Part shown: in pieces, positions 25,785 through 54,051 of the stretch
Layout: every line of letters starts with the position of its first letter
Position numbering within the stretch: the stretch's first letter is position 1
NCBI RefSeq assembly: GCF_040215725.1
Contig: NZ_CP157968.1
Location: 992,001 to 1,056,000 of the forward strand
Length of the DNA: 64,000 bases
Direction: 5' to 3'
Origin: Rhizobium sp. ZPR4
GTDB taxonomy: Bacteria > Pseudomonadota > Alphaproteobacteria > Rhizobiales > Rhizobiaceae
Notes under the pieces: model-generated
Told to the model about the DNA's origin: nothing
What the model saw: the letters and a program-made list of their open reading frames with translations, nothing else
Databases searched by the model: none
Translations under genes and position numbers: made by a program

Positions 25785-26609
25785 TTATTCTCGGAGGAAC
25801 GCCAAAATATCGGCGTTCAGTTCCTCCGCATTGACGGTCAACAAGCCGTGCGAATAACCGGAATAGACCTTGAGGCGACCATGCTTGAGCAGCTTTACCG
25901 AGAGCGGCGCCGAATCCTCGTAGGGGACGATCTGGTCGTCCGTGCCGTGCAACACTAGCGTCGGCACGTCGATCATCTTGAGGTCAGCGGTGAAATCTGT
26001 CTCGGAAAACGCTTTGATACAATCGTAGTGCGCTTTCGCTCCGCCCATCATTCCCTGGCGCCACCAGTTATCGACGACGCCGGGGATAAGCTTGGCGTCC
26101 GGCCGGTTGAATCCGTAGAAGGGGCCACTCGGCAGGTCGCGGTAGAGCTGAGCGCGATTGGCCGCCAGTGCTGCGCGTATGCCGTCGAACACACTCAACG
26201 GCAGTCCGCCAGGGTTGTTTTCTGTCTTCACCATAATTGGGGGGACGGCCCCAGCCAGCACCGCTTTCGCAACACGCCCCTTGCCATGGCGAGCAACGTA
26301 TCGCGTCACTTCTCCTCCGCCCGTCGAGTGGCCGATGTGGACCGCATCCCGCAGATCAAAGGCCTCGACCAGCTCCGCGACATCGGCGGCATAGGTGTCC
26401 ATATCGTTTCCGCCATCCGTCTGTGTGGAACGGCCGTGACCGCGTCGGTCATGGGCGATCACTCGATAGCCCTTCTCGCGGAAGAAGAGCATTTGTGTAT
26501 CCCAATCATCCGCCGACAACGGCCATCCGTGGTGGAAAACGATCGGCTGACCCGCTCCCCAATCCTTGAAGAAGAGTTCGGTGCCATCCCGTAATTTAAG
26601 AATACCCAT
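25785..26609 (-). CDS. Alpha/beta hydrolase (non-heme chloroperoxidase-like)
   Basis: A 274-residue alpha/beta hydrolase with oxyanion region [12 protein letters not shown], nucleophile elbow GHSTGGGE (Ser near 95), acid in HGTDDQIVP and catalytic His in SGYSHGL. This set of motifs is that of cofactor-free haloperoxidase/perhydrolase-type esterases. It would hydrolyse esters or lactones, or form peracids. It shares orientation with the HD-domain gene upstream (88-bp gap), and its ATG is preceded by GGAGAT. Confidence 0.92.
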
Positions 26610-26697
26610 GTTGATCTCCGTTCATGCGCCTCAGCGGTTGATGATATGTGATAATGAATATTCAGCGGGTAGCGGGCGACAGCTCGTTGATCGCGGC

Positions 26698-27339
26698 TCA
26701 GCTTTGCCAGGACGAGTGGCGAATGACGGTGCAGAAGTTGCCAGGGTGAAAACTGTGATCCTTCTCGGCGATGACGTCGGCTTTGACGTTGCCGAAGGTC
26801 GTTTCCGGTTTGTGTTTGATACCGTCGTAGAAGGCTTGGATGATGTCCTCCTTGAAATGAATGGTGCGAGGGTGCGCCTTCACGATCGCTTCGCGCTGGG
26901 CATCGGAAAATTCGTGATAGGTCAGACCAAGAACATCCATCTCGACGCCGGCAGTCACAAGGGCGACGACCGGATGCATGAACTCGGGAATACCGAGCGT
27001 CGTGTGTAGCGCAATCGCGGTCCAGACCAGATCGATATCGGCTTTGGAGATGCCGCGGCCTTTGAGGAACTCGCGGGCGACATCGGCACCGTCGACCTCG
27101 AAGCGCTTGTCTGAACTGCTGTGTTCATGCAGCAGCCCCATGTCGTGAAACATCGCTCCGGCATAGAGGAGTTCGCGATCAAACTTCAGATCGCGCCTCA
27201 CGCCGGAGAGTGCTCCGAAATAGTAGACGCGGCTCGAGTGATGAAAGAGGAGCGGAGGTGCCGTGGTGCGAACCAGTTCCGTGATCTCCTGTGCAAGCTT
27301 GCTGTCAGGGATCGAAATACCTTCGACATTGAACGACAT
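26698..27339 (-). CDS. HD-domain protein (cyanamide hydratase-like)
   Basis: This 213-residue protein has HD-type metal ligands: HHSSRVYYF with the first His, AMFHDMGLL with the HD pair, and IALHTTLGIPEFMHP with further His residues. The overall arrangement is that of the small HD hydrolases annotated as cyanamide hydratase-like or diguanylate-binding phosphohydrolases. Cyanamide hydratase activity is not assured. It is divergent from an AraC regulator, with the hydrolase gene downstream. Confidence 0.82.
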   Translation of the reverse strand: MSFNVEGISIPDSKLAQEITELVRTTAPPLLFHHSSRVYYFGALSGVRRDLKFDRELLYAGAMFHDMGLLHEHSSSDKRFEVDGADVAREFLKGRGISKADIDLVWTAIALHTTLGIPEFMHPVVALVTAGVEMDVLGLTYHEFSDAQREAIVKAHPRTIHFKEDIIQAFYDGIKHKPETTFGNVKADVIAEKDHSFHPGNFCTVIRHSSWQS

Positions 27340-27522
27340 GCGCAGTCACCTCTCGGTTGGCGGTTCAGACGTCTTGGTCGTGGTCTATTGTGCGGCGCCT
27401 CTTTCGGGACCTGCAGTCCTCCTAATGGTTTCGGGGCCTGCACTCGTTAAATGGTAGAGATGTGATGGGATGAGGTCTGGTAGGAAGGCGCCCGAATTGG
27501 TATCAATCAACCGAGATCGCTT

Positions 27523-28539
27523 TTGATCGTGATTGGTGGCTCGCATTTCCTTTGCGCGGCAATGCGCAGAGAGCGAGATCGGGAAAATTCCAAGGGAATA
27601 TTGACAAGATTGGAGGTCCGCGTGCTCGCCGATCGGGTGTCCTTGGCGATTAGAAAGGGATACAAGATCCCGCTGCCTCCGACTGTGGTTGCTCGGATTG
27701 CTGGCGCGTCGGAAATTGCGTTTTCGCACTTCAAGAACCTCGAGCCTCGGCTTGGCCTGTCTGTGCCATCTCCCCGCGAGGAGGCGTTCGTCTTCAATAT
27801 CCCATTGGCGCCCGCACGCTATCCGATCGTCTCTATCGATGGCAGGCGACAATCCGTCATTCAGGATCCGGGAAAAGCCTACTTATTTGACCTAACATCG
27901 AGAAACGAAGTCAGCCTGGACACGAGTTATGACAGCATACGCATTCATCTGCCACAAACCACCATCGATAGCATGGCCTATGAAAGAGGCCTTCCCCGAG
28001 TCGGAGGTCTCAGGGCCAGTTGCCTCGGGCAAGATGATGTCATCCTTTATCGCCTCGCTCTAACTGTATTGCCGGCCATACTCAATTCAGTGCCGGTCAC
28101 CACAGCATTTATGGAGTACATTGCTTTAGCGCTGCATGATCATGTCATTTATACTTATGGCAATATTCAAAGAGGCGCCAGCTCGACGGGTGGGCTGACG
28201 CCGTGGCAAGCCCGCCGTGCTTGCGACTATATCGAGGCAAATCTCGCTGACGACCTTTCAATTGCTGAGCTTGGTCGGGAGTGCGGTATCTCCGCCAGCT
28301 ATTTCGCGCGAGCCTTTAGGGTCACGTTCGGCATGACGCCTCATCAGTGGATCACAAGAAGGAGGATCGAACTGGCGAAGTCGCTGATGGCCCAAGCCAC
28401 CGAAAGCCTGGCCGGGATCGCCATCACGTGCGGGTTCGTCGACCAAAGTCATTTGGGCCGGCATTTCCTCAGGCTGGAGGGTATCAGTCCCGCCCAATGG
28501 CGCCGGCGGCGGCACATCGGGCAGGGGGCAACAGAATAA
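27523..28539 (+). CDS. AraC-family transcriptional regulator
   Basis: A protein of up to 338 residues whose C-terminus (about 230-330) is a double helix-turn-helix AraC domain (LSIAELGRECGISASYFARAF and ATESLAGIAITCGFVDQSHL). The N-terminal part matches the AraC-binding-like ligand domain. The start is uncertain: TTG 27523 gives the longest frame and ATG 27562 (325 residues) is a good alternative, neither with a strong ribosome site. It is divergent from the HD-domain and hydrolase genes and probably regulates them. Confidence 0.85.
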   Translation: MIVIGGSHFLCAAMRRERDRENSKGILTRLEVRVLADRVSLAIRKGYKIPLPPTVVARIAGASEIAFSHFKNLEPRLGLSVPSPREEAFVFNIPLAPARYPIVSIDGRRQSVIQDPGKAYLFDLTSRNEVSLDTSYDSIRIHLPQTTIDSMAYERGLPRVGGLRASCLGQDDVILYRLALTVLPAILNSVPVTTAFMEYIALALHDHVIYTYGNIQRGASSTGGLTPWQARRACDYIEANLADDLSIAELGRECGISASYFARAFRVTFGMTPHQWITRRRIELAKSLMAQATESLAGIAITCGFVDQSHLGRHFLRLEGISPAQWRRRRHIGQGATE

Positions 28540-28753: not shown

Positions 28754-29509
28754 TCACCGCGCGCTATACCCCCCATCAGCCATGAGGATGTGTCCGGTGA
28801 CAAATGATGCGTTCGATCCTGCGAGATAGACGATCACATCGGCGATCTCGCTGGGTTCTGCCCAGCGTCCAAGGGGGTGAGCGCTCTTGATGGCTGCTTC
28901 TCCGGCTTTCGGATCCTCCAATCCCTCGAGGTATCGTGTCAGGAATGGCGTGTTGATGGAGCCGGCGCCCACGGCGTTGACGCGAATACCTTTCGGCGCA
29001 TAGTCGATTGCCATCTGTCGAACGAGCTGCAACAGAGCGCCTTTGGCCGCGCAGTATGCGGCTTGTTCGGGGAGGCCCACGACGCTTGAGATCGAGCCGG
29101 TCGCGACGATCGAGCCGGACTGCCTTTCGATCATGGCGGGGAGGGCTCGTCTTGCCATCAGGAAGAACGCCTTGGCATTCGCATTCATGACGCTGTCCCA
29201 TTCCTCCTCGCTGGTGTCGTGCACTGATTTCGAGATGATGAAGCCTGCATTGTTGATCAGGATATCGACCGGGCCGAAAGCATGTTCCGCCCGGTTGAAA
29301 ATTCGTTCGACATCATCCGATCGTGTAACATCCGCCACGACGGCGACGATGCAACCCGGCGCGAGGTTTTCGAGATCTTGCACTGATGATGTGATGTCGG
29401 TCGCGCAGATGCGTGCGCCTTGTTCCAATAGTTTCACCACGACCTCGCGGCCGACGCCGCCGGCGGCGCCTGAAACCACGACGACTTGTTCAGCGAAGGA
29501 TGAGCTCAT
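28754..29509 (-). CDS. Short-chain dehydrogenase/reductase
   Basis: This 251-residue classical SDR has VVSGAAGGVGREV (cofactor), DILINNAG, the catalytic Ser in GSISSVVG and YCAAKGAL as YxxxK, plus the C-terminal HILMADGGYSA typical of the FabG-like branch. It would oxidise a hydroxy acid or sugar acid. ATG 29509 has AAGGAA upstream. It lies 54 bp downstream of the SMP-30 gene on the same strand and is probably co-transcribed with it. Confidence 0.9.
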   Translation of the reverse strand: MSSSFAEQVVVVSGAAGGVGREVVVKLLEQGARICATDITSSVQDLENLAPGCIVAVVADVTRSDDVERIFNRAEHAFGPVDILINNAGFIISKSVHDTSEEEWDSVMNANAKAFFLMARRALPAMIERQSGSIVATGSISSVVGLPEQAAYCAAKGALLQLVRQMAIDYAPKGIRVNAVGAGSINTPFLTRYLEGLEDPKAGEAAIKSAHPLGRWAEPSEIADVIVYLAGSNASFVTGHILMADGGYSAR

Positions 29510-29563
29510 TTGTTTGGTTCCTTTAGTGAAGCTTACAGATTGGGTGGTCACGATCGAGACGGC

Positions 29564-30490
29564 CTATGTCGTCGCCGGGCGAGCCATCGCCCTGGTTTGC
29601 AGGAAGACGGCATAGAGGCTCTGGGTAGCGCAGATGAACAGGCGGTTTTTCCTGGCGCCTCCGAAGACGACGTTGGCGGTCGTTTCCGGGATGCGGATCT
29701 TGCCTAGCAATTCCCCTCCGTTGCTCAGGCAATGCACTCCGTCGGCCGCGCTCACCCAGATGTTTCCTTTTTCATCGAGGCGCATGCCGTCGTAGATGCC
29801 CTGATTGCAGGCCGCGAGAATCCGGTCGTTACCCAGCGTCTTGCCGTCCGGGGCGACGTCAAATTCGCGAATATGTCTGGGGCCGTCGGCGCTATGGGTC
29901 GCGCCACTGTCGGCAATGTAGAGCTTCGTCTCATCGTGATTGAAGGCAAGGCCGTTGGGCTTGACCAAATCGTCCGCAACGATCGAGACGTGGCCATCAG
30001 CGGGATCGACGCGGTAGACATTGGAGCTGCCGATCTCCGACGGGCTTCGATGTCCTTCGTAGTCGCTGTCGATGCCATAGGTCGGGTCCGTGAACCAGAT
30101 GGAGCCATCGGACTTTACGACGACATCGTTCGGTGAATTCAACCGTTTGCCCTGGTAGTGCGATGCGAGGACAGTCACGGAGCCGTCATGCTCGACGCGT
30201 GAGACGCGGCGCTCCCCGTGTTCGCATGCGATCAGTCGGCCTTCGCGGTCGATGGTATGTCCATTCTGAAATCCGCAGGGGTTCTCGAATATCGAAACGG
30301 AATTGTCCGTCTCATCCCACCGCATAAGCCGATCATTGGGTATGTCCGAAAAGAGCAAGTAACGGCCTGCGGCGAAATAAACCGGCCCCTCGAGCCATCG
30401 ACCGCCGGTCCACAGCTTCTCGACATGAACGTTCGGAAGGATCAGGCCTCGAAAACGGTCGTCATGAATTTCAAAAGCGTCGGAAAACAT
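29564..30490 (-). CDS. SMP-30/gluconolactonase-family lactonase
   Basis: A 308-residue six-bladed beta-propeller of the SMP-30/regucalcin family. The metal-binding residues are recognisable: Glu34 in RWLEGPVYF, Asn in LNSPNDVVV and Asp in LYIADSGATH. It would open a lactone ring with a divalent metal. ATG 30490 with GGGAGGGGC just upstream gives a normal N-terminus; the longer upstream frame crosses the operator. It is divergent from the flavin reductase and monooxygenase operon across a 386-bp gap with palindromes of one type on both sides. Confidence 0.9.
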   Translation of the reverse strand: MFSDAFEIHDDRFRGLILPNVHVEKLWTGGRWLEGPVYFAAGRYLLFSDIPNDRLMRWDETDNSVSIFENPCGFQNGHTIDREGRLIACEHGERRVSRVEHDGSVTVLASHYQGKRLNSPNDVVVKSDGSIWFTDPTYGIDSDYEGHRSPSEIGSSNVYRVDPADGHVSIVADDLVKPNGLAFNHDETKLYIADSGATHSADGPRHIREFDVAPDGKTLGNDRILAACNQGIYDGMRLDEKGNIWVSAADGVHCLSNGGELLGKIRIPETTANVVFGGARKNRLFICATQSLYAVFLQTRAMARPATT

Positions 30491-30564
30491 CTGCCCCTCC
30501 CAGGCTCCTCGCAAATGGCTGACTGCCTCGTCGCTCTCCCTGAGTATCTTCCGCAAAGCATAAT

Positions 30565-30581
30565 GCAGATTATCTACAATC
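30565..30581. promoter_or_regulatory. GntR-type palindrome, copy 1 (lactonase side)
   Basis: GCAGATTATCTACAATC is the exact reverse complement of 30829-30845. In the reading direction of the SMP-30 gene it reads GATTGTAGATAATCTGC, 75 bases before the ATG. It would let one repressor control both divergent units. Confidence 0.7.
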
Positions 30582-30830
30582 TGCAAGCCATGCGAAGCGA
30601 CCTGTCGCGAAAAAGCTTGGGGCCATCGTCGTAACGCAGCAGTTGGAAGGAGACAACGAAGCTTCATCCCCCTGTTACGAGAACTGGGTCTGCGATGCCG
30701 TACATGGGTCTAAATGTTGGTCTTGGTGATTTGAAATTGCCTGCACCGGATCGTAGGTGGCGTAATTTTTCAAACCAATTCATGTGGTTATTGACAATCT
30801 TCCCTCATCGCGGATTCGTGTGTTGACGGA

Positions 30831-30847
30831 TTGTAGATAATCTGCAA
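30831..30847. promoter_or_regulatory. GntR-type palindrome, copy 2 (flavin reductase side)
   Basis: TTGTAGATAATCTGCAA is a 17-bp dyad with a central A and one mismatched arm position. A TTGACG that could be the -35 element sits just upstream (30823-30828), so a bound regulator would cover the promoter of the flavin reductase operon. The 17-bp core is duplicated in inverse orientation at 30565. Confidence 0.7.
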
Positions 30848-30876
30848 ACTTAAATGCACTTGAATGGGAGCATCCA

Positions 30877-31380
30877 ATGCGCGACCAGAATGAAGAAAAC
30901 TTCCGCCAATCCATGCGACGCCTCGCGGCCACCGTTTGCGTCATCTCCTGTCAGAACGAGGGGGTACGGCATGGCATCACCGTGACTTCGGTGACGTCGC
31001 TATGCTTTTCGCCCCTTTCTATCCTCGTATGCATCAATCAGAAGGCTTCGGTGCTGGCCCCGCTGCACAAGGAAAAGCGCTACTGCATCAATCTTCTGCA
31101 GGCTTCGCAGGTCGAAATCTCACGGCGTTTCAGCGGCGGTGTTCCCGCAAGCGAGCGTTTCCTCGATGGCGGCTGGGAGCTTGAGGGCGGAATTCCTTAT
31201 CTCGCCGATGCCCAGGCCAATCTCTTCTGCGAGATCGATAGGGCCTACAGCTATTCAACGCACGACATCATCATCGGCAGGGTGAGCAATTCGCGCTTCG
31301 CTGCCGAGGTTTCGCCACTGATCTATCAGGATGGCCTCTACGCGATCGGCGCTCCGATCCCTCTTTCGAATGCGGCTTGA
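30877..31380 (+). CDS. Flavin reductase-family protein
   Basis: A 167-residue flavin reductase-like domain protein: start MRDQNEENFRQSMRRLAATVCVISC, then GITVTSVTSLCFSPLSILVCINQKAS, the FMN-binding split-barrel segment. Such proteins supply reduced FMN or FAD from NAD(P)H to a partner monooxygenase. The luciferase-like monooxygenase gene is 56 bp downstream, so it is likely its dedicated partner, as HpaC/RutF-type proteins are in other systems. GGGAG precedes the ATG. Confidence 0.9.
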   Translation: MRDQNEENFRQSMRRLAATVCVISCQNEGVRHGITVTSVTSLCFSPLSILVCINQKASVLAPLHKEKRYCINLLQASQVEISRRFSGGVPASERFLDGGWELEGGIPYLADAQANLFCEIDRAYSYSTHDIIIGRVSNSRFAAEVSPLIYQDGLYAIGAPIPLSNAA

Positions 31381-31436
31381 ACGGTCGCAGAGCCATTGGC
31401 GCTCTGGCGCCCCAGAAATGTTTTTAGGAGAATGAC

Positions 31437-32528
31437 ATGCAACTCGGCTTGTTCAGCCTTATGACCTTGCGCGACCATCCCGATGGTGCCGTCGGCGTCA
31501 TGCGCGATACGAAGAAGATGGTCCAGACCGCCGAGGAGTTGGACTTCGACATCGCCTGGTTTGCCGAGCACCACTTCGCCAACTATTCCAGCTCGCCGTC
31601 ACCGCTGATGATGTGCTCCTACGCGGCTGGCTGGACAAAGAAGATCAAGCTTGGGCCGGGTGTCATCGTGCTGCCGCTCTACAATCCGCTGCGCGTTGCC
31701 CAGGAGATCGCGGTTGCCGATACGCAGACAGAGGGACGCCTGGTCGTTGGCATGGGAACCGGCTACCAGCAATATGAATTCGACCGCTACGGCGCCGCCA
31801 TCGAAGACAAGGTCGACGTCTTCCTCGAATATTGGGACGTCATCGAGAAGGCATTGGTCGACGGCGAGGTCGAATATCAGGGCAGGTTTTTCAGCGTTCC
31901 CAAGACGAGTTTCGCGGTCAGCACGCAACAAAAACCGCTGCCGCCGATCTTCGTAACGACGTCGCATCCCAAGCTGCTCGACAGGTTCAAGAAATGGAAT
32001 GCGACGCCTTTCATTGCGGCAAGTACCCTGGGTTCGCCCGTATTGTACAAAATGGGAGACGGGCTCAACAAGGCATGGGAATCCATCGGCGAGAACCCGC
32101 TGAAGAAGCCGCTGGCGATCATGCAATATGTCAACATCACCGACAGCCGCAGCGAAGCGCTCGCTGTCGGCGAGCGTGCCCGCTATGTCGGTCGCATGGC
32201 TCACCATCTTCGACAGGCCGAGCTGCCGGTCGACGACAAGGGTTACATCCGCGACGAACCCTATGATGGCGAATATACGCTCGATCAATACGCCGACAAC
32301 ATGGTGGTCGGCGACCCGCATATGGTTGCGGAAAAGATGATCGCCGATATCAAGCGGCTTAATCCCACCAACTACACGTGCAACTTTTCCTTCGGATGCA
32401 TGCCGATTGAAAAGGCGCACAATTCGATCATGCGGTTCAAAAAGGAAGTCGTGCCGCTGATCGAGAAGGAGCTCGGTCCTATCGGATCGATTGGCCACGA
32501 AGCAAGCCAGCAGAGAAAGGCCAGCTAA
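31437..32528 (+). CDS. Luciferase-like (LLM) flavin-dependent monooxygenase
   Basis: This 363-residue protein is a bacterial luciferase-fold monooxygenase: MQLGLFSLMTL start, WFAEHHFANYSSSPSP (the common AEHHF motif), KIKLGPGVIVLPLYNPLRVA, and a typical barrel end. The family uses reduced FMN from a separate reductase to oxygenate a substrate, often breaking a C-C, C-N or C-S bond. The upstream gene encodes the probable reductase; downstream genes encode uptake, SDR and RidA proteins. The last is typical of pathways that make reactive enamine/imine intermediates. The substrate is not predictable from sequence. Confidence 0.92.
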   Translation: MQLGLFSLMTLRDHPDGAVGVMRDTKKMVQTAEELDFDIAWFAEHHFANYSSSPSPLMMCSYAAGWTKKIKLGPGVIVLPLYNPLRVAQEIAVADTQTEGRLVVGMGTGYQQYEFDRYGAAIEDKVDVFLEYWDVIEKALVDGEVEYQGRFFSVPKTSFAVSTQQKPLPPIFVTTSHPKLLDRFKKWNATPFIAASTLGSPVLYKMGDGLNKAWESIGENPLKKPLAIMQYVNITDSRSEALAVGERARYVGRMAHHLRQAELPVDDKGYIRDEPYDGEYTLDQYADNMVVGDPHMVAEKMIADIKRLNPTNYTCNFSFGCMPIEKAHNSIMRFKKEVVPLIEKELGPIGSIGHEASQQRKAS

Positions 32529-32596
32529 AGAATGCGTACGGGTATAAAGCCCGACCGCGATCATGACAGCATAACCTAAAAACAAGGGGAACTACG

Positions 32597-33424
32597 ATGA
32601 AAGCAAAATTCAGCCTCATTCTTGCGAGTCTCGGTCTTGCGACACTGGCCTTTGCCGGTCCTTCGCATGCGCAATCGGCACTCGACAATATCGTCAACAG
32701 CAAGAAGCTGCGCTGCGGCATCATGCTCGACAGCCCACCCGCTGGTTATCGCGATCAGAACAACCAGCCTGACGGTTATGACGTTACCTACTGTAAGGAT
32801 ATGGCAAAGGCACTTGGTGCGGAGCCGGAAATCGTTGAGACGCCTTCGCCGGATCGTATCCCGGCTCTCGTTTCGAACCGCATCGATGTCTTGATCGCCT
32901 CCACGACACCGACACCGGCGCGCGCGCTGACGGTAGCCTTTACCCAGCCCTACACAAACAACATCATGACCGTGGTGACACGCAAGGACACGGGTATCAC
33001 CCAATATTCCGATCTTGCATCCAAGAAGCTCGGCGGTGTTGTCGGCACCACGCCGGAGCAGCTTTTCAAAGAAGAGCTCGCGAAAGGTTGGCAGGGCTCT
33101 GGTGCCACCTATACCGGTTATGCCAGCGATGCCGAGAGCTATCTCGCTTTGCAGCAGGGCAAGATCGATGCCATTCTGATCTCCGCTGGTGTGTTCAAAG
33201 CGCTGTCGGAAAGCGGCCAGTTCCCCGAATTCGTTGCTTCGGGAATAGCGCCTCTCGCCGATTTCGGTTCGATCGCTGTACGCCGCGACGACCAGCAGTT
33301 CCTCAACTGGGCGCGTGTGTTCGTTTTTAATCAGGTCGCGAGCGGTCGCTGGGCAGAAGTCTACCATAAGTACTATGGCAATGGGCCACTTCCGCCACTG
33401 ACGTCTCAAGGCATCAACTTTTAA
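32597..33424 (+). CDS. Polar amino acid-type ABC transporter substrate-binding protein
   Basis: A 275-residue periplasmic binding protein: signal peptide to about residue 26 (FAGPSHAQ), then a type II fold with the family start LRCGIMLDSPPAGYRDQNNQPDGYDVTYCKDMAKAL. The R/D pair that binds alpha-amino and carboxyl groups in amino acid binders seems partly present, so an amino acid or a small cationic or carboxylic N-compound is plausible. AAGGGGAA precedes the ATG. It is followed by two permease genes and an ATPase gene in the same orientation. Confidence 0.92.
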   Translation: MKAKFSLILASLGLATLAFAGPSHAQSALDNIVNSKKLRCGIMLDSPPAGYRDQNNQPDGYDVTYCKDMAKALGAEPEIVETPSPDRIPALVSNRIDVLIASTTPTPARALTVAFTQPYTNNIMTVVTRKDTGITQYSDLASKKLGGVVGTTPEQLFKEELAKGWQGSGATYTGYASDAESYLALQQGKIDAILISAGVFKALSESGQFPEFVASGIAPLADFGSIAVRRDDQQFLNWARVFVFNQVASGRWAEVYHKYYGNGPLPPLTSQGINF

Positions 33425-33477
33425 CATAGCGTCCGTGCCGGCAGGCTATCTTGCCGGCACTCGCATGGAGTGATTGC

Positions 33478-34140
33478 ATGAACGGCTATCAGTTCTATTG
33501 GTCCATCGTCTGGGATGCGCTTCCGCTTCTTTTGGCCGGTGCTTGGGTAACCATTCAGATCACCATCCTCGCCTTCGTTATCGGCACGGTAATCGCGATG
33601 CCCATGGCCGTGGCGCGCCAACATGGCGAGGGATGGGCCTACCGCTTCTCGACCGGATGGGTGGAGCTGTCGCGTAACACGCCGGCGGTCTTCCAGCTCT
33701 ATCTTTTCTATTTCGGACTGGGCGCCTTCCACATCAATATTCCCAGCTACGCCGCCCTCCTGATCTCGGTATCCTTCAACAATGCCGGCTATATGACGGA
33801 AATCTTCAGGGGCGGGCTGGTCGCGATCCCAAGACAGCAACTTTCCGCTTCACGCTCGCTGGGCATGACCAGCCCCCAGAGCTTCATTCATGTGATCTTT
33901 CCGCAGATGTTTAAGGTCATTTTTCCCGCCTATGTCACGCAAGGCATCTGGGGCATGTTGAACACGTCGCTGGGTATGCTGGTCGGACTGCAGGAGCTTT
34001 CAGGCGCCACGCAGTACGCGCAATCAACCTCCTTCCGGACGTTCGAGTTCTTTTTGGTCACTGCGCTGATCTACTACCTCATCGCCAAGGCGCTGCAGAT
34101 TTCATCGCAACTGGCCTTTCGGCTTATCTATAGGAGCTGA
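33478..34140 (+). CDS. Amino acid-type ABC transporter permease, first copy
   Basis: A 220-residue HisM/HisQ-type permease with about five hydrophobic helices and the EAA loop SASRSLGMTSPQSFIHVIFPQM. ATG 33478 is chosen as the start; an in-frame upstream extension lacks homology. It precedes the second permease by 2 bp. The two probably form the heterodimeric channel of the importer fed by the binding protein at 32597. Confidence 0.93.
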   Translation: MNGYQFYWSIVWDALPLLLAGAWVTIQITILAFVIGTVIAMPMAVARQHGEGWAYRFSTGWVELSRNTPAVFQLYLFYFGLGAFHINIPSYAALLISVSFNNAGYMTEIFRGGLVAIPRQQLSASRSLGMTSPQSFIHVIFPQMFKVIFPAYVTQGIWGMLNTSLGMLVGLQELSGATQYAQSTSFRTFEFFLVTALIYYLIAKALQISSQLAFRLIYRS

Positions 34141-34142
34141 GC

Positions 34143-34799
34143 GTGCAGTTCTCTTTTGCAAATCAAGGCCTTGTATGGTCGGATGCCTATTTCTTGGCCG
34201 AGGGGGTGTTCAACACCATCCGGCTCGCCGCTGCAGCAACCGTTGTCGGCACTCTTGGGGGTATCGTCCTCGGCTGGTTACGTGCGGTGTCCTTAACCGC
34301 GAGGATTGCCACGGCTCCATACATCGACATCCTCCGTAGCGTGCCGATGATTATCCAATTGATATTGGCTAACAGCTTTCTGTCGATCCTGGGCTTTGGA
34401 GCATCGCCCTTCTGGTTCGGTACCATTGCACTTGGTGCCTGGATGTCGGCGGTAACTGCCGAGGTGGTCCGTGCGGGCCTTCTTTCGGTTCCCATTCAGT
34501 ATCGCAGGAGCGCTCGTTCGCTGGGAATGAATGGTCTCCAGGAGCTGCTATACATTTCGATGCCGTTGGCGTTCAGGACGGCCCTTACCCCATGGATTGG
34601 GCTTGTTCTCAGCCTGATCAAGGACAGCGCACTGGCGGGTGTTGTCGGCTATGTCGAGTATATGCGCTCGACCCAGATACTCATCACCAGGACACACGAG
34701 ACCTGGTTGCTTCTGATCGGAGCGGGACTTTTCTATTTCATTATCTGCTACCCGGTGTCGCGATACAGCCGCCGCCTCGAAGGAAGGATCGTCGTATGA
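34143..34799 (+). CDS. Amino acid-type ABC transporter permease, second copy
   Basis: A 218-residue HisM/HisQ-type permease beginning with GTG at 34143. Its EAA loop reads RSARSLGMNGLQELLYISMP, and about five transmembrane helices are visible. Its stop overlaps the ATPase ATG by 4 bases (ATGA), so translation is coupled. It completes the channel with the preceding permease. Confidence 0.93.
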   Translation: MQFSFANQGLVWSDAYFLAEGVFNTIRLAAAATVVGTLGGIVLGWLRAVSLTARIATAPYIDILRSVPMIIQLILANSFLSILGFGASPFWFGTIALGAWMSAVTAEVVRAGLLSVPIQYRRSARSLGMNGLQELLYISMPLAFRTALTPWIGLVLSLIKDSALAGVVGYVEYMRSTQILITRTHETWLLLIGAGLFYFIICYPVSRYSRRLEGRIVV

Positions 34800-35551
34800 T
34801 CGAAATCAGGAACGTGCGAAAGACTTTTGGGCCGCTGACCGTACTTAAAGGAATAAGCCTTGACGTCAGCAAGGGCGAGCTACTTTGCCTAATCGGTGCC
34901 AGCGGCTCAGGGAAATCGACGCTGTTGCAGTGCATCAATGGACTTGAGCCGATACAGGGCGGTGAGATTGTTGTTGATGGAGTGAGCGTCCATGACCCGA
35001 AGACCAACATCAATAAGCTGCGTCGCAAGCTGGGCATTGTTTTCCAGCAATACAACGCATTCCCTCATTTGACGGCTCTGGAAAACGTCGCATTGGCTCC
35101 AAGAGTCGTTGCGAAGCGCAGCCGCAAGGAAGCAAGAGCGCTCGCGCTTAAGCACCTTCAGCATGTGGGCCTGGGCGATAAGTCGGACAGCCTTCCGTCG
35201 CGCATGTCCGGTGGTCAGCAGCAGCGCCTTGCCATCGCACGTGCGCTCGCAATGGAGCCCTCTTACATGCTTTTCGACGAAGTGACGTCGGCGCTTGATC
35301 CTGAACTCGTCGGTGAGGTTCTGGAAACGATGCGCCTGCTCAAGTCGGAAGGCATGACCATGGTGGTCGTCACGCACGACATCAACTTCGCGCGAGAATC
35401 GGCCGATCGCGTCGCATTCCTGCACCAGGGGGAGGTCTGTGAACTCGGCACGGCCGAACAGGTCATTGACGATCCTCAGATGGAACAGACTCAGAAGTTT
35501 CTGCGCCGCGAGAAGCGGCCGGCCGGCGGCTGCAAGATGTCGGCCGCGTAG
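34796..35551 (+). CDS. Amino acid-type ABC transporter ATP-binding protein
   Basis: A 251-residue ATPase with Walker A GASGSGKST (about 35-43), Q-loop VFQQYNAFPHLT, signature MSGGQQQRLAI, Walker B MLFDEVTSALD (E replaces the usual LFDEPTSALD proline position, giving EVTSAL) and H-loop VVVTHD. GlnQ/HisP family, length normal. It powers import of the compound handled by this cluster. The start overlaps the permease stop. Confidence 0.95.
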   Translation: MIEIRNVRKTFGPLTVLKGISLDVSKGELLCLIGASGSGKSTLLQCINGLEPIQGGEIVVDGVSVHDPKTNINKLRRKLGIVFQQYNAFPHLTALENVALAPRVVAKRSRKEARALALKHLQHVGLGDKSDSLPSRMSGGQQQRLAIARALAMEPSYMLFDEVTSALDPELVGEVLETMRLLKSEGMTMVVVTHDINFARESADRVAFLHQGEVCELGTAEQVIDDPQMEQTQKFLRREKRPAGGCKMSAA

Positions 35552-35586
35552 CCCTCGCGCCAAGCTAAACACAAAGGAGCATTCAA

Positions 35587-36348
35587 ATGATCTCGTTCGA
35601 CCTTTCCGGACGTACAGCCCTCATTACGGGCGGGGCATCCGGTATCGGCCTGGAAGCAGCACGCCTCATCGCCAGCAGCGGTGCGATGGTTGCAATCAAC
35701 TTTCTTCCCGATGATCCGCGTGGACCGGCAGCAATCGAAGCCTTGCAAAAAGAAAGGTTCAAGGTTGTCGCGGCGCCCGGCGACGTCGGCAATGCCGAGA
35801 GTGCGAAGGACATGGTGTTGAAGGCGATCGCCGATCTCGGCCGTCTCGATCTCCTCGTCAACAATGCAGGGACGCCCGGAGTTCGCCATCCTATTCCGAT
35901 CACCGATCTGGACTCGATTACCGAAGAGCTGTGGGCAAATCTTTTGAACGTGAATTTCATGAGCGTCTTCCGCTGCTCCAAGGCGGCCGCACCGGCTTTG
36001 AAAGAAGCGCAGGGGTCGATCGTCAACACGGCTTCCATCGCCGGGCTCGGCGCCGTTGCGAGCACTATCGCCTATAGCGGCTCGAAAGCAGCTGTCATCA
36101 ACCTGACGAAGAACCTTGCCCGTTCGCTTGCGCCTGACGTGCGGGTAAATTCGGTTGCGCCGGGCGCAGTCGACAGTTCGTGGGGCATCGAATGGTCTGA
36201 GGAGCGCCGTCAGGCGACGATTGCCGCAACGCCGATGAAACGGCTCGCGACTCCGGCCGAAGTCGCCGAACTCATCGTCTATCTCGGCTTTGCCGCGAAG
36301 ATGACGACAGGTCAGACAATCGCGATCGACGGCGGTATCTCGATCTAA
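35587..36348 (+). CDS. Short-chain dehydrogenase/reductase
   Basis: A 253-residue classical SDR with TGGASGIGLEAARL (cofactor), LLVNNAG, Ser in NTASIAGLG, YSGSKAAV (YxxxK) and a FabG-like C-terminus TGQTIAIDGGISI. AAAGGAG precedes the ATG closely. It lies between the ABC ATPase gene and the RidA gene in one run of plus-strand genes, so it probably oxidises or reduces an intermediate made by the luciferase-like monooxygenase. It is not closely similar to the SDR at 28754. Confidence 0.92.
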   Translation: MISFDLSGRTALITGGASGIGLEAARLIASSGAMVAINFLPDDPRGPAAIEALQKERFKVVAAPGDVGNAESAKDMVLKAIADLGRLDLLVNNAGTPGVRHPIPITDLDSITEELWANLLNVNFMSVFRCSKAAAPALKEAQGSIVNTASIAGLGAVASTIAYSGSKAAVINLTKNLARSLAPDVRVNSVAPGAVDSSWGIEWSEERRQATIAATPMKRLATPAEVAELIVYLGFAAKMTTGQTIAIDGGISI

Positions 36349-36394
36349 GCATTCGTTCCCGGAACTCTACCGAATTCAAGTGAGGAAATCTTCA

Positions 36395-36817
36395 GTGACG
36401 GAAATCGTAAAGGTCAAGTCGGGCAGCATTTTAGAGGACAAGGAGGGTTACTCCCGCATCGTGGCGGTCGGGGACTGGATTTTCATGTCGTTGACCGCAG
36501 GACGCGATTACAAGACCCGGGCAATGCCAGACACGGCAGTCGAACAGGCCAGGCAAGCGATGAAAAACGTCGAGGGCGCGCTTGAGGCCGTTGGCGCCTC
36601 GCTCGCCGACGTCGTCCGGCGGCGGATTTTCATTCCGCGGCAGGAAGACGTTGCTGATGTCATGGCCTATATGGGCGAGAAGTTTCGCGGCATCGATCCG
36701 GCAAGCTGCGTGAGCTGCGGCCCGCTCGGCGGCCCGGAATATCTGTTTGAAATCGAAATCACGGCCTATCGGGGCGCGGGAGCCCAACCGGCCAGGCAAA
36801 TCTCGATCTCATTATGA
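36395..36817 (+). CDS. RidA/YjgF-family protein
   Basis: A 140-residue RidA-like protein: TAGRDYKTRAMPDTAVEQARQAMKNVEGALEAVGASLADVVRRRIF, then the C-terminal block PLGGPEYLFEIEITAY. RidA proteins hydrolyse reactive enamines/imines or, as RutC does, aid a ring-opening pathway. The start is ambiguous; GTG 36395 has GAGGAA 7 bases upstream, while GTG 36380 lies further upstream without a site. Its place after a monooxygenase, importer and SDR argues for a pathway role and not a housekeeping one. Confidence 0.88.
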   Translation: MTEIVKVKSGSILEDKEGYSRIVAVGDWIFMSLTAGRDYKTRAMPDTAVEQARQAMKNVEGALEAVGASLADVVRRRIFIPRQEDVADVMAYMGEKFRGIDPASCVSCGPLGGPEYLFEIEITAYRGAGAQPARQISISL

Positions 36818-36872
36818 TTTTACGGGCTCGCGCCTTCTCATCCGAACAGCGCAGGCCCGTAATTTGTCTCAT

Positions 36873-36895
36873 CTTTTGTATATAATCGACAAAAG
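36873..36895. promoter_or_regulatory. GntR-type palindrome, copy 3 (before GntR gene)
   Basis: Arms CTTTTGTATAT and ATCGACAAAAG flank a central A; 9 of 11 paired positions match. The core TTGTATATAATCGACAA has the same length, central A and flanks as the sites at 30565 and 30831. A TATAAT at 36881 overlaps it. This suggests GntR autoregulation. Confidence 0.65.
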
Positions 36896-36939
36896 CAAGC
36901 CGATACATTATGACGCTCTGCAATTGAAGCGAGGGCATC

Positions 36940-37659
36940 ATGGCTAGAACCGGTTCAAATCCAGTCATCACTCCTATGAGCACAATGGAGGCGACGCAGT
37001 TTGCTGCAGAGCAGATTCGCAAAGCCATCATAGAGGGTCATTTCAAACCCGGAGACCGCCTAATCGAGCAGCAATTGACGGACATGCTTGACGTTTCACG
37101 TCATCCGGTCCGCGAAGCACTGAGGCTGCTTGCCCGCGAGGGTTTCGTCGAACTCAAGCGCAACAAGGGCGCTTCTGTCAGCGCGGTGGAGGCCGATAGC
37201 GTAACGGAAGTCTATAATATTCGCGTTGCGCTTGGAAAGCTTGCCCTCGATTATCTCATGGCGACCGAGGACCGATTGTCCGTCACGGATCTGAAGCGCC
37301 TGGAAAAGCTGGCAAACAACGCCGTCCGCTTGGCCGAACTGGAAAGCCAGGAAGAGACCGTTCACAACGATCTCGAATTCCAACAGGCAATTATCGATGC
37401 AACCGGTCTTCAGAGGACGATACGCTATTTCTCCGAACTGACCGGCGATGTTCGCCGGTTCAACAATCTCCTGGGCGTTGTCTATACGGATCGCAGGGGT
37501 GATGCGGAGAGTTATGTCATGAAGCTGTTCGAGGCCATTCGTGACCGAAACCTTCGTGAAGCGCATGCCATCTGGCAGGCCAAATTTGCTAAGGCGGCGG
37601 AACGTTATCTCTCGATCATCGAGCGCGGGAACTCCGATGGCGCGAGCAAGGCGATATGA
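36940..37659 (+). CDS. GntR-family regulator, FCD (FadR/VanR) type
   Basis: A 239-residue regulator: winged HTH about residues 15-75 (AEQIRKAIIEGHFKPGDRL, DVSRHPVREALRLLAREGFV) and an all-helical FCD effector domain to the end. In the FCD, the metal-site region reads HNDLEFQQAI where many relatives have FHxxI, so the ligand pocket may bind no metal or a modified one. It sits immediately after the RidA gene and has its own palindromic site. The same site type in the divergent promoter at 30.5-30.85 kb makes it the probable master regulator of the cluster. Confidence 0.9.
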   Translation: MARTGSNPVITPMSTMEATQFAAEQIRKAIIEGHFKPGDRLIEQQLTDMLDVSRHPVREALRLLAREGFVELKRNKGASVSAVEADSVTEVYNIRVALGKLALDYLMATEDRLSVTDLKRLEKLANNAVRLAELESQEETVHNDLEFQQAIIDATGLQRTIRYFSELTGDVRRFNNLLGVVYTDRRGDAESYVMKLFEAIRDRNLREAHAIWQAKFAKAAERYLSIIERGNSDGASKAI

Positions 37660-38698: not shown

Positions 38699-40804
38699 AT
38701 GTCGGTGAACAGGATGGTGAGTGGGACTATTTGGCGAAATGGCTTGGCGATATCGGTGGCCCTTGCGGCATGCAGCCTATCGATGCCGGCTTTCGGTCAA
38801 CAGGCGGAACCGCTTTTTTCCAACCCTCCGGTCTTGGAGGAAACCCGGCCTGGCGCGGCGCCGATGAGCCGGTTCAAAAAATCGCAGGCGGCGGTGACGA
38901 CCTCGGGCCGCAGGCAGCTCGACCTGACCGTGAAGTTTGTCGAAAACGGGATCTACAATCCGGCGACCGGCCGCGTCGACAAGGTCAGGCTTCGTGGTTA
39001 TACCGGCGCTGGTGTCAATCCGAACGCACCTTATGTCGCGCCGGTCATCGAGGCCGCGCCCGGCGAGAGGATCACGGTCGCGCTCCACAACGAGCTTCCC
39101 GATGATGGCAGCTGTGCCGGGCATGGCGACGCCAATCAGCCGCACTGCTTCAACGGCACGAACCTGCACTCTCATGGCCTTTGGGTCAGCCCGACCGGCA
39201 ACAGCGACAACGTCCTGATCTCGATCAATCCCGGCAAGAGCTTCACCTATTTCTACGATCTGCCAGACGAGCATCCCGCCGGTACCTTCTGGTATCACTC
39301 GCACCGGCACGGCTCGACCGCACTTCAGGTATCCAGCGGCATGGCCGGCGCTCTGATAGTGCGCGGCAATCGCCCGCCGACACAGAATGCCAATGGCGAT
39401 CTCGATACCCTGTTGAAGAACGCCGACGGCAAGCCAATGCAAGAGCAGTTGCTCGTTTTCCAGCAGATTCAATATGCCTGCTTCGATGCGAAAGGCCAGA
39501 TCAAGACGCGGGTGGTGGACGGCAAGGTCGTTGCCTGGATCTGCGATCCGGGGGATGTAGGCGAGGTGCGCAACTACGACCAATTCGGACCTGGCACCTG
39601 GGGAGAGTCCGGGCGTTATACGACCATCAACGGGCTGGTCCAGCCTCGCTTCCAGTCGAAGACCGGGCAGGTTGAACGTTGGCGAATGATTCACGGTGGT
39701 GTGCGTGAAACCATCACCGTCGCCTTCCGTCCGCTCCGTGTCGGCGCGCCTGCTTATCGGGCGACTACGGCTGAAGCGGCAGCCGATTACATCAGGCAGA
39801 ATTGCGCCGGGGAGGCTATCCCATATCATATCGTTGCGGCGGATGGGTTGACGACGGCGGTTGCCCGTTCCACGCAAACCGCGACGCTGCAGCCGGGATA
39901 TCGCTTTGATGCACTCGTCATGTTCCCGACGGCAGGCGATTATTGTGTCGTCAACGAGCCGTTGCCCGGCACCGCGAGCGTGACGCGCGCCGATCAGGAC
40001 CGGCAACTGCTTGCCACCGTGTCGGTCACGGCTGGAACGCCGGTCCGCAATATCGATGCGGCCCTGACTGATACGCTCGTCGCGGCTGCACAGCGTACGA
40101 TGCCCACCGATGTGAGGGCCGCCGTCATCGCCGATCTCAAAGACGGCCTCAAGCTGACCCGCTTCGTGCCGCACCCGGACGTCACCGACGACGAAATCAC
40201 CGGGACGCAGGAACTGGTCTTCTTCATCGACCTGAGCGGCAATGTCGCGAAGTTCGAGGTCGGCAACAAATCCTTCGACCCGAAGAATTTCGATCCGGCG
40301 ACATTCAAGCCGCGCTCGTATGATCCCAATTATGTCGATCGTGCCTTGCCGCTGGGTGGCGTCGAGGAATGGACTCTGCAATCGGCCTTCGTCGGCCATC
40401 CGTTCCACATTCACGTCAATCCTTTCCAGATCGTGGAAATCCTCGATCCGAACGGCGTCGACGTCAGCGCGCCGGGAGGAATCGATCGGGCCGGCGGGAC
40501 CGTCGATCCGCAATATCCCGGCCTGAAGGGTGTGTGGAAGGATACGCTCTGGGTGAAGAGCCTGATCAGCAATCCTGCCGATTTCCCCGCAAAGCTTGCC
40601 TCGTCGACGTACAAGATCAAGATCCGCACCCGATATCAGCGCTTCATCGGCGAATATGTCCTGCATTGCCACATCCTGGATCATGAAGATCAGGGGATGA
40701 TGCAGAATGTCTGCATCGAACTGCCCAATGGCGGCGGCGGAGCGAATTGTGCACGGCTGCTGCGCCCGACCGACGGTCAGCAGCCGGCCTCCATGCAACA
40801 TTGA
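38699..40804 (+). CDS. Secreted multicopper oxidase (laccase-like)
   Basis: This 701-residue protein has an N-terminal signal peptide (about 1-33, LSMPAFGQQ) and all four copper motifs of a multicopper oxidase: HSHGLW near 157, WYHSHRHG near 198, HPFHIHVNPF near 567 and LHCHILDHEDQGMM near 656. The Cys in HCH and the Met in the last motif are the type 1 copper ligands. It oxidises phenols or metals and reduces O2 to water in the periplasm or outside. It is long for a laccase. The tyrosinase gene follows 40 bp later. Copper resistance (CopA-like) is an alternative, but no CopB or Met-rich repeats are seen. Confidence 0.92.
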   Translation: MSVNRMVSGTIWRNGLAISVALAACSLSMPAFGQQAEPLFSNPPVLEETRPGAAPMSRFKKSQAAVTTSGRRQLDLTVKFVENGIYNPATGRVDKVRLRGYTGAGVNPNAPYVAPVIEAAPGERITVALHNELPDDGSCAGHGDANQPHCFNGTNLHSHGLWVSPTGNSDNVLISINPGKSFTYFYDLPDEHPAGTFWYHSHRHGSTALQVSSGMAGALIVRGNRPPTQNANGDLDTLLKNADGKPMQEQLLVFQQIQYACFDAKGQIKTRVVDGKVVAWICDPGDVGEVRNYDQFGPGTWGESGRYTTINGLVQPRFQSKTGQVERWRMIHGGVRETITVAFRPLRVGAPAYRATTAEAAADYIRQNCAGEAIPYHIVAADGLTTAVARSTQTATLQPGYRFDALVMFPTAGDYCVVNEPLPGTASVTRADQDRQLLATVSVTAGTPVRNIDAALTDTLVAAAQRTMPTDVRAAVIADLKDGLKLTRFVPHPDVTDDEITGTQELVFFIDLSGNVAKFEVGNKSFDPKNFDPATFKPRSYDPNYVDRALPLGGVEEWTLQSAFVGHPFHIHVNPFQIVEILDPNGVDVSAPGGIDRAGGTVDPQYPGLKGVWKDTLWVKSLISNPADFPAKLASSTYKIKIRTRYQRFIGEYVLHCHILDHEDQGMMQNVCIELPNGGGGANCARLLRPTDGQQPASMQH

Positions 40805-40844
40805 TCCCAGCCACGAACAGTCTTTGAACCCAAGGGAGAGTAAG

Positions 40845-53604: not shown

Positions 53605-54051
53605 TCAGTCCTTCAAACGTTCAAAGGTGACGGGCACACGGGCTGGGGCTTCGATCGCGTCCAGACCGCTTTCAATCCGGCCGAGCTTCACCAGGCCTTC
53701 GGAATACCGAAAGGTCTTGTGAAAAATCGCGAGATTGCCCCAAGGGGCATAGAACGTAATGTCGCCTGCCGAAGGTGTGATGCCGGCAGGCGCGCCATCG
53801 GTCGAGAGCCGGCGCGGCAGGTCGCTGATCTTCTCGGTGGCGGCATAGTCCTCAAGAACAAGCTTGAGCGGCAACAGCGCCAGAAAATTGCGCGCGGCGG
53901 TGTTGTCGTCGAGAACCGCAATTGCGGTTCCCCCAGGCGCGGAGATTTGGATCCTCATCGCATTTCCCAATTCGTTGGCATTGACAGCCGAACCTGCAGC
54001 CGCTGCCATGATGACAACGGTCCGCTTGATGCGAGCTGATCGGCCCAGCAT
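53605..54051 (-). CDS. Cyclophilin-like fold protein, exported
   Basis: A 148-residue protein with a basic N-terminus and hydrophobic signal (RIKRTVVIMAAAAGSAVNA) followed by a cyclophilin-like beta barrel (IQISAPGGTAIAVLDDNTAARNFLALLPLKLVLEDY, AGDITFYAPWGNLAIFHKTF). These small cyclophilin-fold proteins lack prolyl isomerase residues; the role is unknown. ATG 54051 is chosen because upstream residues in frame belong to the tautomerase gene region. It lies 7 bp after the tautomerase stop. Confidence 0.8.
   Translation of the reverse strand: MLGRSARIKRTVVIMAAAAGSAVNANELGNAMRIQISAPGGTAIAVLDDNTAARNFLALLPLKLVLEDYAATEKISDLPRRLSTDGAPAGITPSAGDITFYAPWGNLAIFHKTFRYSEGLVKLGRIESGLDAIEAPARVPVTFERLKD

Follow-up and report, generated by a model that had tools for sequence, protein, structure and literature searches.

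Introduction

Several described systems share components with the catabolic locus reported here, which occupies positions 28754 to 37659 of a 64,000-nucleotide stretch of DNA from Rhizobium sp. ZPR4 (contig NZ_CP157968.1, positions 992,001 to 1,056,000 of the forward strand; hereafter the window, to which coordinates refer unless another locus is named). In the Rut system, a luciferase-like monooxygenase (LLM), RutA, is combined with the flavin mononucleotide (FMN) reductase RutF and the Rid-superfamily protein RutC, while type II Baeyer–Villiger monooxygenases are LLMs with two-component FMNH2 chemistry. The aerobic L-ascorbate pathway of Cupriavidus necator, credited to Stack et al. 2020, reportedly relies on a gluconolactonase-family protein for lactone opening and is said to reach L-lyxonate by way of a benzilic acid rearrangement and a decarboxylation; its markers are cytochrome b561, a WD40-like mutase and a PdxA-like decarboxylase. 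That study is cited in a passage of PMC11066805, and a passage of PMC12540250 outlines how bacteria convert L-threonate to dihydroxyacetone phosphate through LtnD-OtnI-OtnK-OtnC.

The locus contains eleven genes arranged in two divergent units. The minus-strand unit encodes a short-chain dehydrogenase/reductase (SDR1) and an SMP-30/gluconolactonase-like lactonase, and the plus-strand unit encodes a flavin reductase (FR), the LLM, a periplasmic solute-binding protein (SBP), two permeases and the ATPase of an ATP-binding cassette (ABC) importer, a second SDR (SDR2), a Rid-superfamily protein and a GntR-family regulator. This gene content, including families and strands, had been read from the DNA alone in an earlier note and was confirmed with Pfam (GntR with NCBIfam). 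The note had also regarded the system as a candidate undescribed one, and searches of the open-licence PubMed Central literature for the operon or for bacterial ascorbate routes turned up no paper on it. Together, the conserved gene content, a common operator and the threonate genes linked to relatives of the locus suggest a regulon that would import a gulonate/ascorbate-type polyhydroxy acid or lactone and cleave it oxidatively to L-threonate, a reading to which we assign a probability of roughly 0.4.

Conservation of the locus

Relatives were collected by scanning genome contigs with 21 aligned LLM proteins as the query, which yielded 468 relatives, and the best 80 loci were used (cited below by L numbers). 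The orthologous set comprises 36 loci, namely the window, plasmid pRspNXC24a of Rhizobium sp. NXC24 and 34 of the best 80, all with an LLM whose best piece shows 64% identity or more; paralogous clusters with distant LLMs (40–54%) served as a control set and were not counted as members. All 36 loci contain the LLM, GntR and permease 1; FR, the SBP, permease 2, the ATPase and SDR2 are each found in 35, and Rid in 33, a few of these calls being partial matches. SDR1 (16/36) and SMP-30 (13/36, one partial) are accessory rather than core components.

The earlier note had proposed looking for the same gene order in other genomes. The run FR-LLM-SBP-permease-permease-ATPase-SDR2-Rid was found in the same order, on one strand and without any other tested gene between its members, in 23 of the 36 loci, and the order from LLM to SDR2 is kept in 26. 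Such an arrangement is far beyond chance, and the coherence of the locus and its conservation in 36 loci agree with the note's view of a dedicated catabolic unit unlike Rut. The orthologous loci span Rhizobium, Mesorhizobium, Ancylobacter, Acidisoma, Gluconacetobacter, Pantoea, Pseudomonas, Caballeronia and a Candidatus Burkholderia; because of this taxonomic spread, and because the genes flanking the NXC24 copy differ from those of the window, the operon behaves as a transferable unit. An orthologue was detected in 4 of 61 genomes (the window's own counted), at 94–100% identity and all within the same genus, and a sample of 385 genomes of the class, searched at a limit of 1e-130, contained none beyond the window's own. 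The LLM encoded on a contig of Rhizobium rhizogenes 17-2069-2c is 100% identical to that of the window.

Some orthologous loci deviate in detail. Partial matches to HCDH, SMP-30 or aldo-keto reductase (AKR) genes lie between Rid and GntR in L051, L031 and L035, which suggests the decay of a fuller ancestral operon, and L027, L030 and L049 have a tandem pair of SBP genes adjoining one permease pair. Open reading frames without a Pfam match were found in L029, L028, L026, L045, L037, L038, L040, L042, L043 and L071; several are probably shadow frames, since the gene caller accepts long open frames.

A nearly locus-specific operator

The palindrome GATT-N6-AATC was singled out by a shared-palindrome count over 35 upstream regions. 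In 28 of the 35 loci it stands ahead of FR, as compared with 0.135 loci expected from mononucleotide shuffles (maximum in 200 shuffles, 2). The operator consensus is GACRGATTGTAGAYAATCTGCA, and the window carries a copy ahead of each divergent unit: copy 1, GACGGATTGTAGATAATCTGCA (30825..30846, plus strand; 34.5 bits), lies about 30 bp ahead of the FR start and is identical across the five sequences of alignment A3, and copy 2, TGCAGATTGTAGATAATCTGCA (30564..30585, minus strand; 27.5 bits), lies upstream of the SMP-30/SDR1 unit. The canonical FadR/GntR site TNGTNNNACNA was rejected as the conserved element, as only 2 of 35 upstream regions carry it.

The core GATTGTWGAYAATC has exactly two exact matches in the whole 7.7 Mb genome to which the window belongs, and these are the two operator copies of the window; with two mismatches allowed, that genome contains 151 matches versus 15 with the reversed pattern. 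Across 31 other LLM-positive genomes, the 22-letter pattern with at most one mismatch gave 43 matches in 30 genomes, and the reversed control gave 0. A letter-by-letter check placed 42 of the 43 inside the LLM locus, with the remaining one on a different contig of the L093 genome; at L044 this pattern has no match. A weight matrix applied at 15 bits detected a site in all 34 scanned loci and 7 sites in 46 paralogue loci (902,129 bases); having been trained on the same loci, it gives partly circular own-locus scores, which does not apply to the controls or the whole-genome counts.

A second operator copy precedes SMP-30 in the window and the Rhizobium group, SDR1 in L027, L029, L030, L032 and L034, ltnD in L033, L037, L039, L041 and L051, and a second amino-acid-type importer in L040, L044, L045, L047 and L049. 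In four loci otnC is located directly upstream of FR, between both operator copies. Since both units of the window carry the operator and 42 of the 43 matches elsewhere fall inside the locus, the two divergent units very probably constitute one dedicated regulon. Expression data showing that the units are not co-induced had been named in the earlier note as grounds against a single system; at the level of sequence, their common operator is the answer that can be given. The neighbouring GntR (36940..37659, plus strand), for which the best NCBIfam model is TIGR03338 (75.1 bits, cut-off 271.5), would own the operator, as we infer from its presence in all 36 loci. Whatever the substrate, the operator defines a regulon: its members could be catalogued genome by genome, and a reporter could serve to screen for its inducer.

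An operator-like site of 22.9 bits was also observed in a Geminicoccus locus (L075:4370-4391) that has a distant LLM and a GntR 34% identical; this locus may belong, as a distant member, to the same type of regulon.

Threonate genes linked to the locus

Genes outside the core were grouped, those groups that recur in three or more loci were retained, and one representative of each was scanned. The eight resulting accessory groups are OtnC, OtnK, LtnD, an aldo-keto reductase, two permeases and the SBP of a second importer, and a further SDR; none of the eight is an aminotransferase, deaminase or amidase, and none handles nitrogen. The threonate enzymes of L033 exceed their curated cut-offs (LtnD 440.1 bits against 350, OtnK 497.6 against 350, OtnC 317.6 against 250, OtnI 359.3 against 325), and the same holds for OtnK in L037 and L051 and for LtnD in L041 and L051. 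Of the five loci with the operator before ltnD, four have otnK there as well. Linkage to threonate genes occurs in 7 of the 36 orthologous loci and in none of the 46 loci of the paralogue set (Fisher p 0.0022, without correction for kinship), and on the LLM tree it needs four changes, at least 3 of them forced by well-supported branches.

In the complete array of L051 (Mesorhizobium loti), SDR1-OtnK-OtnI-LtnD occupies the minus strand and OtnC-FR-LLM-SBP-permease-permease-ATPase-SDR2-Rid-HCDH-SMP30-AKR-GntR the plus strand, some parts being fragmentary. The module of L027 is differently arranged; its OtnK and OtnC are nonetheless above the curated cut-offs. The accessory HCDH protein of L037 is closest to lambda-crystallins (3ado, 9.6e-69; 3f3s, 9.6e-62; next different solved protein, 6.6e-36), and lambda-crystallin is L-gulonate 3-dehydrogenase. 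The window locus has no threonate genes among the genes tested. Elsewhere in its genome, ltnD, otnK, otnC and an otnI-like gene stand in a row from C2:130331, the OtnI-like protein scoring 301.1 bits, below the cut-off of 325.

Enzymes and importer

The LLM (31437..32528, plus strand; Pfam Bac_luciferase, E 8.3e-49) follows directly after FR in the window (30877..31380, plus strand; Flavin_Reduct, E 8.7e-34), an FMN reductase of the RutF/HpaC-like kind, in a two-component layout. In its predicted structure (predicted local distance difference test score 86.9), the nearest folds are bacterial luciferases and 2i7g, and a type II Baeyer–Villiger monooxygenase and RutA match as well; the modelled fold alone does not decide the reaction.

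SDR2 (35587..36348, plus strand; adh_short_C2, E 1.8e-50) is the dehydrogenase of the core operon, and SDR1 (28754..29509, minus strand; adh_short_C2, E 1.6e-64) shares its unit with SMP-30 (29564..30490, minus strand; SGL, E 2.4e-49), whose closest solved relatives, 3e5z and 3dr2, are both named gluconolactonases. The start of SMP-30 was set at 30490 and not at 30667 because the longer frame would include the operator at 30564-30585; the starts of SDR1, permease 1, the ATPase and SMP-30 were all revised from the annotated NXC24 relative and the placement of the operator. The earlier suggestion that SMP-30 opens a lactone is plausible only for those loci that bear the gene.

The Rid-superfamily protein (36380..36817, plus strand; Ribonuc_L-PSP, E 5.6e-19) reads PASCV where RidA has PARSCV in the alignment, and pasCV in the consensus of 33 sequences. 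The missing Arg presumably corresponds to Arg105 of E. coli RidA. The earlier note had assigned to this protein the handling of an imine or enamine; judged by its sequence and by the accessory groups, which include no aminotransferase, deaminase or amidase, the classic RidA imine role is disfavoured.

The importer has the make-up of the polar amino acid type, with a family 3 SBP (32597..33424; SBP_bac_3, E 5.9e-31), permeases 1 (33478..34140) and 2 (34143..34799; both BPD_transp_1) and a GlnQ-like ATPase (34796..35551; ABC_tran, E 4e-35), all on the plus strand; curated equivalog cut-offs were not reached (GlnQ model 300.5 bits, cut-off 379). In amino acid SBPs, an Arg holds the alpha-carboxylate and an Asp the alpha-ammonium group. 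Arg109 is kept in 39 of 39 SBP orthologues, and Asp occurs at position 196, the usual ammonium-side position, in 1 of 39. As a control, 30 of 40 SBP_bac_3 matches of the window genome were taken, including the window's own, and 13 of the 29 others also lack the ammonium-side Asp, so that the loss is weak evidence. Homology of the SBP to amino acid binders is likewise no proof of a nitrogenous ligand. Its fold neighbours are amino acid SBPs and opine binders, including OccJ and SocA.

NCBIfam cut-offs were reached by none of FR, the LLM (25 of 29 matches listed), SBP, Rid and GntR, and these proteins therefore cannot be named by a curated model. Rfam and tRNA scans revealed no RNA element within the locus.

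Proposed pathway and alternative explanations

In the pathway that we propose, the SBP-permease-ATPase importer would take up the acid, SMP-30, where present, would open a lactone, and SDR2 or SDR1 would make a ketone, assisted in some relatives by the lambda-crystallin-like dehydrogenase. FR would then supply FMNH2, and the flavin peroxide of the LLM would place an oxygen between C2 and C3 of a vicinal dicarbonyl or 3-oxo acid in a reaction of the Baeyer–Villiger type. The resulting ester would fall to L-threonate and a C2 piece, and LtnD-OtnI-OtnK-OtnC would carry L-threonate to dihydroxyacetone phosphate. From dehydroascorbate this would lead through oxalyl-threonate to oxalate and L-threonate, and from 3-oxo-gulonate or another 3-oxo-hexonate possibly to L-threonate and glyoxylate. 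According to PMC6225978, free peroxide converts dehydroascorbate to oxalyl-threonates and to oxalate and threonate, and with 2,3-diketogulonate it causes mainly CO2 loss and yields no more than traces of oxalyl-threonate. Because the peroxide chemistry of diketogulonate is mainly decarboxylation, dehydroascorbate or a 3-oxo acid would fit better.

A more specific version, which we regard as unlikely, is that the locus represents a new aerobic vitamin C route of plant-associated bacteria, in which the LLM would split dehydroascorbate, 2,3-diketogulonate or 3-oxo-gulonate between C2 and C3 to give L-threonate and oxalate or glyoxylate. If the pathway proposed above is correct, oxidative C–C cleavage of a sugar acid would join the known reactions of luciferase-like monooxygenases, and plant-associated bacteria could live on ascorbate breakdown products. 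The pathway would also contribute an enzyme that performs a kind of cleavage for which the plant routes are called incompletely characterised in a passage of PMC12540250.

The earlier note had inferred a nitrogen-containing substrate. The accessory enzymes point instead to a sugar acid ending in L-threonate, and cleavage of such an acid is preferred, though at less than even odds, over a nitrogenous substrate and an imine intermediate. Several observations nevertheless weigh against it. In 29 of 36 loci no threonate gene is linked in the stretch covered, some stretches ending at contig ends, and the threonate module of L027 and L030 comes with a LacI gene of its own and without a copy of the operator. 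The threonate genes of the window genome are without an operator copy among the matches listed. Only 24 of the 32 LLM-positive genomes have LtnD above its cut-off, and within the genus it occurs in 4 of 4 LLM-positive and in 24 of 33 LLM-lacking genomes; as genus members without the LLM often have LtnD too, its presence at genome level proves nothing. Among the neighbours scanned no oxalate enzyme or oxalyl esterase could be recognised, although no search was aimed at them. A TonB receptor adjoins FR in Gluconacetobacter L043, where the operator is weak (17.1 bits), which suggests a scarcer or larger ligand. Finally, the importer is of the amino acid type, the fold neighbours of its SBP bind amino acids and opines, and relatives of Rid (56–60% identical) adjoin oxoprolinase A/B genes on tumour-inducing (Ti) plasmids and in Martelella, a nitrogen context; 3 of the 76 plasmid records with Rid relatives were examined. 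On two Agrobacterium Ti plasmids (L107:9013-9435 and L110:8013-8435), the same Rid clade lies beside DeoR, oxoprolinase A/B and a flavin adenine dinucleotide (FAD) oxidoreductase, near trb genes.

These last features would be accounted for by a sugar–amino acid conjugate, such as an Amadori compound or a mannityl-opine-like one. The importer would bind its carboxylate and substituted nitrogen, in line with an SBP that keeps the carboxylate Arg, has mostly lost the ammonium Asp and counts opine binders among its fold neighbours; the LLM would cleave the sugar to a tetronate, and Rid would aid imine hydrolysis. The Ti-plasmid neighbours of Rid fit as well, given that, as stated in a passage of PMC6733357, oxoprolinase A/B-type proteins could open lactam rings. 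However, no FAD amine oxidase accompanies the core in any of the eight accessory groups, which likewise include no deaminase, amidase or aminotransferase, and the Rid lacks the RidA Arg. LtnD is moreover an L-threonate enzyme, whereas fructosyl compounds would, given their stereochemistry, yield D-erythronate. We consider a conjugate substrate unlikely.

Similarly unlikely is an explanation in which the threonate genes are incidental and the oxidation carried out by the core concerns an unrelated cyclic ketone or alcohol, with an SDR producing the ketone, the LLM converting it to a lactone, and SMP-30 or a host esterase releasing the hydroxy acid. In its favour are the 29 loci without a linked threonate gene in the stretch covered, and paralogous LLM clusters do serve other pathways, together with Rieske oxygenases, glutamine-synthetase-like proteins or Liv-type importers. 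The position of the operator argues the other way, as it is nearly confined to the LLM locus and precedes ltnD in five loci, and in four it flanks otnC upstream of FR. Degradation of a metal chelator or aminopolycarboxylate (mugineic-acid-like or ethylenediaminedisuccinate-like) by a system resembling NtaA/EmoA would suit the pairing of LLM and flavin reductase and the TonB receptor of L043 with its weak operator, but it is highly improbable, given that the LLM is luciferase-alpha-like, that no nitrilotriacetate-type model occurs among the 25 of 29 NCBIfam matches listed, and that the accessory genes encode sugar-acid enzymes.

Neighbouring genes and related clusters

To the left of the locus (25785-28539) lie genes for an alpha/beta hydrolase, an HD-domain protein, nearest to the cyanamide hydratase family (58 bits, below the cut-off of 109.85), and an AraC-type regulator. 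To the right (38699-42371), a multicopper oxidase is followed by a tyrosinase-like protein, neither being conserved with the locus. Because both clusters were detected only in the window and the near-identical L022 and are absent around the NXC24 copy, they are placed outside the system. A single tRNA-Pro (agg) was detected by ARAGORN at 53759-53847.

Among the paralogous clusters, a second conserved LLM cluster (45–48% identical) was observed in L076-L078, L082-L086, L088 and L096 (Serratia, Pantoea, Erwinia, Sodalis and others). Judged by the families found in L076, it comprises SBP_bac_3, FAD_binding_2, SDR, ATPase, permease, LLM, Rieske oxygenase, aldo-keto reductase, glutamine-synthetase-like and TetR proteins, and it has the appearance of a further catabolic operon not yet described, whose substrate may be an amine. 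A third cluster (L052, L055-L061 and L065-L068; families from L052) has two divergent LLMs, LysR, a Peripla_BP_6 (Liv-type) importer, FR and SDR, with a glyoxalase-like protein in most loci. A cousin from Rhizobiaceae ACE_PRO31 (L071:8064-18699) combines Rid (42%), LLM (48%), SBP_bac_3, ATPase (50%), SDR2 (41%), a second LLM and FR in one run.

Comparison with known systems

The locus resembles Rut in joining an LLM, an FMN reductase and a Rid-superfamily protein. It differs in that its flavin reductase reaches 105 bits with the RutF model, against a cut-off of 254.75, and its Rid protein 25.6 bits with the RutC model, against 169.1. As the earlier note had pointed out, RutB, RutD, RutE and the nucleobase permease are absent among the genes identified at the locus, which has an importer, SDRs, a lactonase and its own operator. 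A Rut-like pathway was rejected because of the model scores far below cut-off and the missing Rut genes.

The modelled LLM also resembles the type II Baeyer–Villiger enzyme diketocamphane 1,6-monooxygenase (5aec/4uwm) in its fold and probably in its two-component FMNH2 chemistry, and a lactone or ester product would suit a subsequent lactonase. However, identity is about 20%, and bacterial luciferase alpha and 8cbb rank closer to the window LLM.

The Ti-plasmid hydantoinase/oxoprolinase opine regions, presumably the agropinic acid region, share with the locus a Rid that is 56–59% identical, but they are composed of oxoprolinase A/B and an FAD oxidoreductase and contain no LLM in the stretches examined.

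With the Cupriavidus ascorbate pathway, the link is through SMP-30, relatives of which (about 60%) adjoin cytochrome b561 genes in 2 of 4 plasmid loci examined, out of 510 records and with two of the four picked because cytochrome b561 was named. The present locus differs in its LLM monooxygenase and, in a minority of loci, its L-threonate genes; cytochrome b561, the WD40-like mutase and the PdxA-like decarboxylase are not among its identified genes, although no search was aimed at them.

The L-threonate pathway itself is shared through LtnD-OtnI-OtnK-OtnC, linked in seven loci and preceded by the operator at ltnD in five. Whereas the known pathway begins at threonate, here a monooxygenase and an importer precede it, and the vitamin C route considered above as an unlikely version would amount to an enzymatic version of the oxalyl-threonate chemistry of the plant apoplast.

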